64,000 nt of DNA. It comes from Phycisphaeraceae bacterium. GTDB lineage: Bacteria; Planctomycetota; Phycisphaerae; Phycisphaerales; Phycisphaeraceae. A model generated the notes under the pieces. That model was not told the origin of the DNA. It made no database searches and worked only from the letters and a program-made list of their open reading frames with translations. The translations under genes were made by a program, and so were the position numbers. Every line of letters begins with the position of its first letter. Position 1 is the first letter of the stretch. Where the stretch lies: the NCBI GenBank assembly GCA_020851465.1, contig JADZCR010000005.1:1-64000 (forward strand), read 5' to 3'. Below are positions 33,892 to 36,973 of the stretch, one piece after another.

Positions 33892-34656
33892 ATGAGAACT
33901 TTGTTTCAAAGCTGGCGTTTCGGTGTTTGTGGCGTTGCCGGCCTGATGGGTTGGTGTGTGCTGTTGTTGTGGGGGCAGTCGCCTGCTGCTCCGCCGCCTG
34001 CCGCGACATCGCCCGCAACGACTCCCGCGACCCTGCCGGCACAGGGCTTACCGCACATCAGCATTGATCGACAGCATCGCACGATAGATCTTGAGGCGAC
34101 GGTCGTGCTTCGCGAGGCGAAATGGCTCGAACTGCTGGCCTGTTCACCCAAATCACGAGAACACGAGTCCATTCTCACGGTGCCAGCCCGTCCCAGCCAC
34201 ATCCATGTTGCGCTGCTGATGCTGGGTCTTGAGGCCGGCTCCCCGATGCGCAGTTGGCTTGAAGGTGATGAGGCCAAGTGGTCTCCGCCGCATGGCCCGA
34301 AAGTTCGTATCACCATTCTTTATGAGGAGAGCGGAAAGCGGGTCGAGGTGCCCGCCAATGAATGGATTATCAATCAGAACACTCATGAGCCGATGAAGGG
34401 CAACATCTGGCTCTTTGCCGGCTCAGCGATCGGCGAGGTCGAAGGCGAAAAAGTTTATTACGCGGACCTTAATGGCACGGTGGTTTCGCTGGTGAATTTT
34501 GGTGACGACCTGCTCTCGCGTGATACGACGATGACCAACGATGATGATAATTCCACCTGGGGCACGCGCACTGAAAAGATTCCGCCGGTCGGAACGAAAG
34601 TCACGCTTCGATTGACGCCGGTGGATGAGCCGACGACGAAGCCGGCTGCTCAGTAG
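33892..34656 (+). CDS. Exported YdjY-domain protein
   Basis: 254 residues. Signal anchor/peptide at residues 8-28 (WRFGVCGVAGLMGWCVLLLWG), a Pro/Ala/Thr linker to about 50, then a YdjY-like domain: IDLEATVVLREAKWLELLACSPKSREHES and PSHIHVALLMLGLEAGSPM, which is the conserved core of that exported family. A predicted insertion NDDDNSTWGTRTEKIPP precedes the end. Function of YdjY domains is not known to me beyond frequent occurrence in planctomycete exported proteins. Confidence 0.72.
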   Translation: MRTLFQSWRFGVCGVAGLMGWCVLLLWGQSPAAPPPAATSPATTPATLPAQGLPHISIDRQHRTIDLEATVVLREAKWLELLACSPKSREHESILTVPARPSHIHVALLMLGLEAGSPMRSWLEGDEAKWSPPHGPKVRITILYEESGKRVEVPANEWIINQNTHEPMKGNIWLFAGSAIGEVEGEKVYYADLNGTVVSLVNFGDDLLSRDTTMTNDDDNSTWGTRTEKIPPVGTKVTLRLTPVDEPTTKPAAQ

Positions 34657-34891: not shown

Positions 34892-36973
34892 GTGAACGAA
34901 TCACTACGAAGCTGGATGAGCTATGAAAATCAATCCCAGTGGCCGCGCGTGGGTGTAATGAAACGGCCATCCACGCGCCGGCTGCTGAATGCGTTCGCGC
35001 CAGTCGCCGGGAGCGAGTTGGAACCGCTTGAGCCGCGCGTAATGATGGCGGCAACGCCGATCGACGCCAATGACCAGATCCGTGAAGCGGTCGTTGCGGG
35101 CGTCATGTCCACCACACGGGTTATTTCAGGCACCATGGATGCCACCACCGATGTGGACATGATTTCATTTGACGTATCCACTGGACAGACGATCTCGATG
35201 GATGTCGATCGCAGGTCCGGCACCATTGATTCGTACTTGCGGCTTTTCAATTCACTGGGTGAACAGATCGCGTTTAATGACAACGCAGCTGCTCCAGGTG
35301 AAGCTGCCGGTAAAGATTCATACCTGACCTATACCTTCTCGACCGGAGGACGGTACTACGTCGCGGTCTCCGCATCAGGTAACACAGGCTATTCAGCCAT
35401 CACCGGTCTGGGTGACGTATCGGGTAAAGGCAAAGGAACCTACAAACTCACGCTCAGCAAGGTTGACGGTCCAACGGATACCGCTGGCAATACCCTTGCT
35501 GACGCCCGCAACCTGGGCACGATCAGCAGCGGCTACACGCTCAGCGAAGCACTCAACACATCGGACCATGACGATTTCTTCAAGTTTTCCGTCACCTCGG
35601 CGATGAACGCCACGATCAACCTTTCGGGTCTAAGCTCCAATGCTGATCTCCAGTTCATCGCTGACGCCAACGGTAACGGCGTGGCCGACCCGGGTGAAGT
35701 TCTGGCATCAAGCGCACTGACGGGTACGGGCACGGAGACGATGCAGAAGTCGCTGACTGCGGGCACCTATTACGTGCGGGTGTACAACAGCGGTTCGAAT
35801 ACCGGTTATGCGCTGAGCCTTTCGCTAACCGCGCCGGCTCCTGCCCCGACACCAGCTCCAGAACCCACGCCGACCCCGACTCCAACTCCGACTCCTGCAC
35901 CTGAGCCTGGCACGGATTGGTTCAGCAGCAATCTCTTTGATAGCGGCATCGTGACGGTCGCCCGCAGCCTGTTTACCGATGGCTCCTTCAATCGCGGCGA
36001 CATGATTAACATCCTCGCCACCGCGGGCAGCGATGACGGCGTCGTGGACGCCAACGAGTTGGCGGACCTGCGCAAGATCGTGGCGAGTGCTTCGACTTTC
36101 GGCATGGCTGACTACGTGAAAGTTCTTGCCGGCAAGATCGTCAATGGCTCGGTCGCGAATGCGACCTACCTCGGCTCGTCTCTGGGAAATCTGGCGTCGG
36201 GGAGCAGCGCGGGGCAGCTCGGCAAACTCGTCGATAAGTGGTTCCTCGGTGCTGATCATCCGGTCGCTAAATCACCCGGCGGTGCGACCTACACCTATCA
36301 GTACGTGGCCGGGTCACTCTTTCAAAATGGCATCGCTTATACCGACATCCGTCAGGGAACCGTCGGAGACTGCTACCTGCTGGCTACGATGGGTTCGATC
36401 GCGCTGAACTCGCCGTCATCGATCCAGAACATGATCATCGACAACGGCGATCAAACCTACACCATTCGCTTTTACAACAACAGCGTGGCGGATTTCGTGA
36501 CGGTGGACCGCTACCTGCCTGTGGATAGCGGCGGTCGCCTCATTTTTGCCAACATGGGGGCGGCTTACACCAACGCGGGTAACGAGCTTTGGGTGCCGCT
36601 CATCGAAAAAGCCTACGCCCAAGCCAACGAGATGAAGTGGCTCGGTCAGGACGGGACCAACTCGTATCAAGGCATTTCCGGCGGCTGGATGGGAACGGTT
36701 TACACCCAGATGCTCAACAGGCCTTCCTCGACTCAGATGTTCAGCACCGAAAGTGCCCTGACTACGATGCTCTCCTCCGGCAAGATGATCACCGCCGGCT
36801 CGAAGTCATCAGGTACAACCAATGGCGTCATCGCCAACCACGCCTACATCATCACCGGCTACGACTCGACCACAAAAACCTTCTCGCTTTACAACCCCTG
36901 GGGAACGAATCAGCCTCCGGCTCTGAACTTCACGCAACTGATGGCTAACTTCAACTACACCGCGGCTGCGTAA
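34892..36973 (+). CDS. Secreted calpain-like (C2) cysteine protease with PPC domains and LEPR N-terminus
   Basis: 693 residues. An unusual N-terminus with LEPLEPRVMM (about residues 43-53) matches the planctomycete LEPR signature of exported proteins. Two bacterial PPC beta-sandwich domains follow (about 70-185 and 195-310), then a Pro/Thr linker (APAPTPAPEPTPTPTPTPTP) and a region DGSFNRGDMINILATAGSDDG...DANEL resembling an EF-hand/dockerin-like segment. The C-terminal ~230 residues are a calpain protease core: RQGTVGDCYLLATMGSIA with Cys 494, NHAYIITGYD with His 650 and LYNPWGTNQ with Asn 668, i.e. a complete Cys-His-Asn triad. GTG 34892 has AAGGG 9 bp upstream; ATG 34916 or 34958 are alternatives. 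Probably a secreted, possibly Ca2+-responsive protease. Confidence 0.85.
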   Translation: MNESLRSWMSYENQSQWPRVGVMKRPSTRRLLNAFAPVAGSELEPLEPRVMMAATPIDANDQIREAVVAGVMSTTRVISGTMDATTDVDMISFDVSTGQTISMDVDRRSGTIDSYLRLFNSLGEQIAFNDNAAAPGEAAGKDSYLTYTFSTGGRYYVAVSASGNTGYSAITGLGDVSGKGKGTYKLTLSKVDGPTDTAGNTLADARNLGTISSGYTLSEALNTSDHDDFFKFSVTSAMNATINLSGLSSNADLQFIADANGNGVADPGEVLASSALTGTGTETMQKSLTAGTYYVRVYNSGSNTGYALSLSLTAPAPAPTPAPEPTPTPTPTPTPAPEPGTDWFSSNLFDSGIVTVARSLFTDGSFNRGDMINILATAGSDDGVVDANELADLRKIVASASTFGMADYVKVLAGKIVNGSVANATYLGSSLGNLASGSSAGQLGKLVDKWFLGADHPVAKSPGGATYTYQYVAGSLFQNGIAYTDIRQGTVGDCYLLATMGSIALNSPSSIQNMIIDNGDQTYTIRFYNNSVADFVTVDRYLPVDSGGRLIFANMGAAYTNAGNELWVPLIEKAYAQANEMKWLGQDGTNSYQGISGGWMGTVYTQMLNRPSSTQMFSTESALTTMLSSGKMITAGSKSSGTTNGVIANHAYIITGYDSTTKTFSLYNPWGTNQPPALNFTQLMANFNYTAAA

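Follow-up and report, generated by a model that had tools for sequence, protein, structure and literature searches.

A putative exported calpain of the cyanobacterial type encoded on a planctomycete chromosome

Does a single planctomycete gene encode a functional calpain destined for the cell exterior, and what would control such an enzyme there? The question was raised by one open reading frame in the window, the 64,000-nucleotide stretch of Phycisphaeraceae DNA analysed here, which an earlier note had read as a secreted calpain-type protease and had set against the view of calpains as eukaryotic, intracellular enzymes. The novelty implied by that view is out of date. Rawlings 2015 (PMC4631099) describes bacterial calpains in seven phyla, one planctomycete among them, with PPC domains N-terminal to the calpain core in cyanobacteria, and Veselenyiova 2022 (PMC9380684) describes 13 cyanobacterial calpains, most of them with PPC domains. 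Taken as a whole, the analysis makes it very probable that the product of this gene is a bacterial calpain of the cyanobacterial type, both exported and catalytically competent. The protein is mostly a solid addition to the described bacterial calpain family; a segment ahead of its catalytic core, referred to here as the helper domain, is the one unexplained part.

Gene and domain organization

The gene occupies positions 34892-36973 of the forward strand as a single open reading frame of 693 amino acids that begins with GTG; translation from an ATG in the same frame at 34958 would give 671 amino acids. A promoter scan at the gene returned no promoter-like site. By Peptidase_C2 profile search, it is the sole C2 gene of its genome (87.9 bits). 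The following features were assigned, the coordinates being those of the window.

34892..36973 (+), whole gene for a calpain-type protease, export predicted (open reading frame and Pfam)
35018..35074 (+), LEPR-XLL / planctomycete cell-surface export motif, residues 43-61, ...LEPLEPRVMMA (NF012209)
35150..35374 (+), PPC domain 1, residues 87-161 (PF04151)
35573..35785 (+), PPC domain 2, residues ~228-298 (PF04151, E 1.5e-8 when scanned alone)
35822..35911 (+), Pro/Thr-rich linker, residues ~311-340 (visible in the sequence)
35912..36271 (+), helper domain, unnamed, helical, residues 341-460 (alignments A1/A4, profile matches, AF2 pLDDT 95)
36314..36910 (+), calpain catalytic core, Peptidase_C2, residues 475-673 (PF00648, E 3.3e-24)
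36353..36355 (+), Gln488, oxyanion hole (conserved 30/30)
36371..36373 (+), Cys494, nucleophile (conserved 30/30)
36839..36841 (+), His650, general base (conserved 30/30)
36893..36895 (+), Asn668, third triad residue (conserved 30/30)

Both PPC domains claimed in the earlier note were thus recovered by PF04151, and the PT-repeat linker that it described corresponds to the Pro/Thr-rich stretch between the second of them and the helper domain.

The catalytic core

Family assignment of the core was based on profile, sequence, and structure comparisons. PF00648 matched residues 475-673 with 85.9 bits (cut-off 23.8), which exceeds chance by far. A phmmer search of PDB sequences returned human calpain-8, -2, -1, and -9 (best E 8e-12), and a PDB search with the family profile returned m-calpain at E 9e-24. 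Gln488, Cys494, His650, and Asn668 are identical in all 30 aligned bacterial calpains, so that a match above the curated cut-off is accompanied by a Cys-His-Asn triad preceded by the oxyanion Gln, as in family C2.

An AF2 model of residues 337-693 (pLDDT 94, pTM 0.92) contained the calpain core fold, PC1 plus PC2, and when it was submitted to Foldseek, all 40 matches at E<=0.001 were calpains. With VIA, the best match was the calpain-3 core with E-64 (Z 21.8, rmsd 2.6 Å, 223 aligned). Z values of 20.9-21.8 were obtained against inhibitor-bound or Ca2+-bound calpains, among them full-length Ca2+-bound m-calpain 3bow (21.2), compared with 13.7-15.4 against Ca2+-free, inactive full-length m-calpain (1kfu, 1kfx, 1df0, and 1u5i); papain-like proteases came next at Z ~10. 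Because the model scores higher against active than against Ca2+-free calpains, its two half-domains are read as assembled in the active-like arrangement, a state towards which AF2 models lean. The superposition, taken with the alignment, suggests that Cys494, His650, and Asn668 lie together in the model. The calpain fold and complete triad proposed earlier, including the residue positions, were therefore borne out, and where another fold or a scattered triad would have counted against the proposal, the whole modelled core superposes on active calpain cores (Z 21-22, rmsd ~2.6 Å). Residues and fold together point to a catalytically competent calpain, for which peptidase activity is predicted. 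Classical eukaryotic calpains (calpain-1, -2, -3, and -9) share with this protein the core fold, the triad, the oxyanion Gln, and the residues of Ca2+ site 1.

Predicted export

The planctomycete LEPR N-terminus claimed in the earlier note was confirmed by the LEPR-8K profile NF012209, which matched residues 43-61 above its curated cut-off (21.2 bits against 17; 25.5 bits in the genome scan), although the related Pfam profile PF07595 stayed below its own (13.9 against 25.5). The N-terminal sequence, ELEPLEPRVMMA, agrees with the planctomycete consensus RRLxxExLExRxLLA, which is "thought to represent" an export signal of surface proteins (PMC8567305). N-termini with an LE(A)R motif were also found in two planctomycete relatives, LENLEARKMLSA in L074 and VEQLEARMLCA in L003. 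The cyanobacterial open reading frames showed no LExLExR at their N-termini, though a number of them are cut short by the end of a contig or locus. Two indirect indications, the LExLExR motif and the presence of PPC domains, suggest that the calpain is exported. For the cyanobacterial relatives, the authors of PMC9380684 favour a cytosolic location because transmembrane helices are absent. Elsewhere in the same genome, outside the window, a sub-threshold LEPR-8K match lies in an 11,895-amino acid open frame (G000:C8, 72096-72131 (-)).

The helper domain

In cyanobacteria and a few planctomycetes, residues 341-460 are conserved alongside the core, and three residues of the helper domain, Asp363, Arg368, and Glu389, are invariant (19/19). 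No Pfam or NCBIfam family covers this segment, nor is it mentioned in the main text of PMC4631099 or PMC9380684, as far as that text was available. The domain was modelled with high confidence (pLDDT 94.8); its model alone matched nothing significantly in the PDB (best Foldseek E 3.2, best VIA Z 3.4), a result compatible with a known as well as a new fold. Since the module overlays the start of calpain PC1 from about residue 407 in the VIA comparison, the unit that is extra to the calpain is probably ~342-406; on a wider definition, this mobile part covers ~342-418.

The distribution of the domain was examined in Cyanobacteria and Planctomycetota. Its profile was found in 14 of 194 cyanobacterial genomes, always within a calpain open reading frame, and among 392 planctomycete genomes only in the gene under study and in G371. 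The helper-like stretch of G371 (67 residues, hhalign 94.9%) lies N-terminal to a different domain that has no Pfam family and is possibly, judged from its sequence alone, a papain-like hydrolase. The G371 gene itself is planctomycete (L085:459-1484 (+)); relatives of its second domain occur as hypothetical proteins on enterobacterial plasmids.

A position immediately N-terminal to the core and the confinement to calpain open reading frames in those 14 of 194 cyanobacterial genomes would suit an inhibitory pro-domain that is removed or displaced after export, making the protein a zymogen in the manner of secreted papain-type proteases and not an ion-controlled enzyme. The similar 67-residue stretch that G371 carries ahead of an unrelated domain, possibly a cysteine hydrolase, fits the same idea. 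On the other hand, at least the part of 341-460 that overlays PC1 from ~407 belongs to the enzyme, and no cleavage site was identified, so that we regard this explanation as rather unlikely, if the best of the alternatives. The preferred reading is of a calpain whose helper domain probably aids folding of the core or holds it inactive until export.

Calcium sites and the EF-hand question

The Ca2+ sites were placed by the rat calpain-2 definition given in PMC4631099, together with an alignment to calpain-2. The counterpart of peptidase site 1 comprises Gly480, Asp485, and Glu565, all of which are retained; counting this protein, 13 of the 19 helper-calpains have the complete set (G/D/E). Site 2 has no counterpart of its acidic loop, because the protein stops 25 residues past Asn668. 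It is site 2 that makes a classical calpain a cooperative Ca2+ switch. Unlike the classical eukaryotic calpains, the protein also lacks a penta-EF-hand domain (no EF-hand profile at E<1 in Pfam), a CBSW domain, and a small subunit, and it carries a predicted export signal and the extra helper domain.

The EF-hand/dockerin-like segment of the earlier note corresponds to residues 376-389, ATAGSDDGVVDANE, inside a helix-loop-helix predicted by AF2 at 368-398. Position 1 of the loop is Ala378 and positions 3/5/9/12 are S/D/D/E, the acidic residues being Asp382, Asp386, and Glu389 (position 12); AF2 predicts a bridge within the loop. Glu389 is the same in all 19 helper domains; position 1 varies among relatives. 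No EF-hand or dockerin profile from Pfam or NCBIfam matched the protein or the helper domain at E<1, and a search of the helper against PDB sequences yielded nothing beyond centrin and troponin C at E ~1. The predicted helix-loop-helix and its acidic residues stand; the identification of the helper as a dockerin or EF-hand was judged weak, for want of a profile match and of a ligand at position 1.

These observations bear on the suggestion that the enzyme is "perhaps Ca2+-switched", according to which the helix-loop-helix and site 1 would bind Ca2+ after export and turn the enzyme on, with copies still in the cytoplasm remaining inactive. The retained site 1 residues, the invariant Glu389 in its predicted, bridged helix-loop-helix, and a very faint profile resemblance to centrin and troponin C are what such a switch would predict. 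Against it stand Ala378 at a loop position that varies in relatives, the absent EF-hand and dockerin profiles, the missing site 2 at a C-terminus so close to Asn668, and the poor suitability of extracellular Ca2+ as a switch; the helper fold search likewise listed no EF-hand, which is not decisive. Given the alanine, the absent profiles, and the missing site, the data lend no support to a Ca2+ switch of the calpain type, and we consider the proposal unlikely. Binding of one structural Ca2+ at the predicted site 1 is plausible.

Proposed mode of action

In the preferred reading, an exported and active calpain, the LExLExR N-terminus would act as the export and surface signal, and the two β-sandwich PPC domains on their Pro/Thr linker would serve to display or anchor the enzyme outside the cytoplasm. 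The compact, helical helper is predicted with high confidence to pack beside the PC1 half. Peptide bonds would be cleaved by attack of Cys494, with His650 as the base oriented by Asn668 and Gln488 forming the oxyanion hole, and one Ca2+ on Gly480/Asp485/Glu565, the equivalent of calpain site 1, may serve as a structural or alignment ion. That the protein is instead a catalytically silent homologue serving in surface binding is very improbable: inactive calpain homologues occur in eukaryotes (PMC4631099) and PPC domains suggest surface use, but the catalytic and oxyanion residues are intact here and invariant over 30 relatives.

According to Rawlings 2015 (PMC4631099), possibly no bacterial calpain has been characterized, the sole biochemical report perhaps concerning a mixture of peptidases. 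With its intact triad, confident active-like model, and defined domain borders, the exported calpain described here is a clean candidate for characterization; it could be used to test the Ca2+ requirement of the ancestral calpain and the extracellular action of bacterial calpains.

Distribution and origin

Few planctomycete genomes have C2 genes. They were found in 2 of 61 genomes comprising the source genome and its close relatives, and of 392 planctomycete genomes, 13 gave a match to the helper-calpain module. Other planctomycete calpains (G189, G204, G244, and others) resemble the protein in having a C2 core with the triad; no helper was detected in them, they are 22-36% identical to it, and they form a separate branch of the tree. 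Identity over helper and core to the closest cyanobacterial proteins is 47-52%, and the A4 profile, of which the sequence is itself part, matched it at E 1.2e-51. In the tree, the gene groups with G021 (91/76), and both group with six cyanobacterial sequences (94/91), apart from the main planctomycete calpain groups. A helper fused to the C2 core and this grouping place the gene in the helper-calpain clade.

Cyanobacterial PPC-calpains (e.g. Nostoc Alr0369) likewise have N-terminal PPC domains, a C-terminal CysPc core, and the full C/H/N triad, and the closest of them have the helper domain as well; unlike them, the present protein has a planctomycete LExLExR N-terminus and is encoded on a planctomycete chromosome. 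Exchange with cyanobacteria, in either direction, of the whole gene or of its helper-calpain module is the likeliest reading, and the planctomycete export N-terminus would have been fitted to it; the forks behind this reading are of moderate support (87/79 and 94/91). The grouping with cyanobacterial calpains has no counterpart in the main text of PMC4631099 or PMC9380684, as available. Recent foreign DNA was rejected on composition, the GC (57.5%) and GC3 (69.5%) of the gene matching those of its neighbours. A phage or viral origin was rejected as well: viral contigs contained no relative, and one distant calpain was found in an unannotated phage record.

Gene neighbourhood and a cyanobacterial downstream gene

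The chromosomal stretch around the gene is ordinary, with NUDIX, thymidine-phosphorylase-type, RecJ, PHO4, and Glu/Gln-tRNA synthetase genes. Directly upstream lies a gene for a YdjY-domain protein with a hydrophobic N-terminus (33892-34656 (+)), and downstream are methyltransferase and glucose/sorbosone dehydrogenase genes. None of these three has a counterpart beside the G021 calpain, and an operon partner within the window was rejected.

In five cyanobacteria, a same-strand gene directly 3' of the helper-calpain encodes a β-rich product of 165-191 amino acids with a hydrophobic N-terminal stretch. The five proteins are related, with identity down to ~33%, and the only Pfam match was to ASH (E 1.3e-3). 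Its locations downstream of the helper-calpain are as follows.

L076:6235-6744 (+), small β-rich gene
L077:3985-4479 (-), small β-rich gene
L004:2781-3353 (+), small β-rich gene
L030 and L037, homologues

Unlike these five calpain genes, the gene in the window has no such small downstream neighbour; the β-rich gene was not found in the window or in three planctomycete genomes, in a genome search run without a positive control. It is not mentioned in the available main text of PMC4631099 or PMC9380684. As a guess, its product could be a dedicated inhibitor or partner of the calpain. The helper domain and this gene suggest a control mechanism unlike the eukaryotic one. It is doubtful, though conceivable, that residues 342-418 form a regulatory domain, so far undescribed, of exported thiol proteases in bacteria and, with the cyanobacterial β-rich protein, a dedicated control system; if so, a pro-domain and a secreted inhibitor would control bacterial calpains in place of the eukaryotic Ca2+ switch.

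Rawlings 2015 (PMC4631099) reported bacterial calpains on chromosomes only. One gene of the PPC-helper-calpain type, L024:2305-3786 (+), was found on a mobilizable Calothrix plasmid, AP025019.1.
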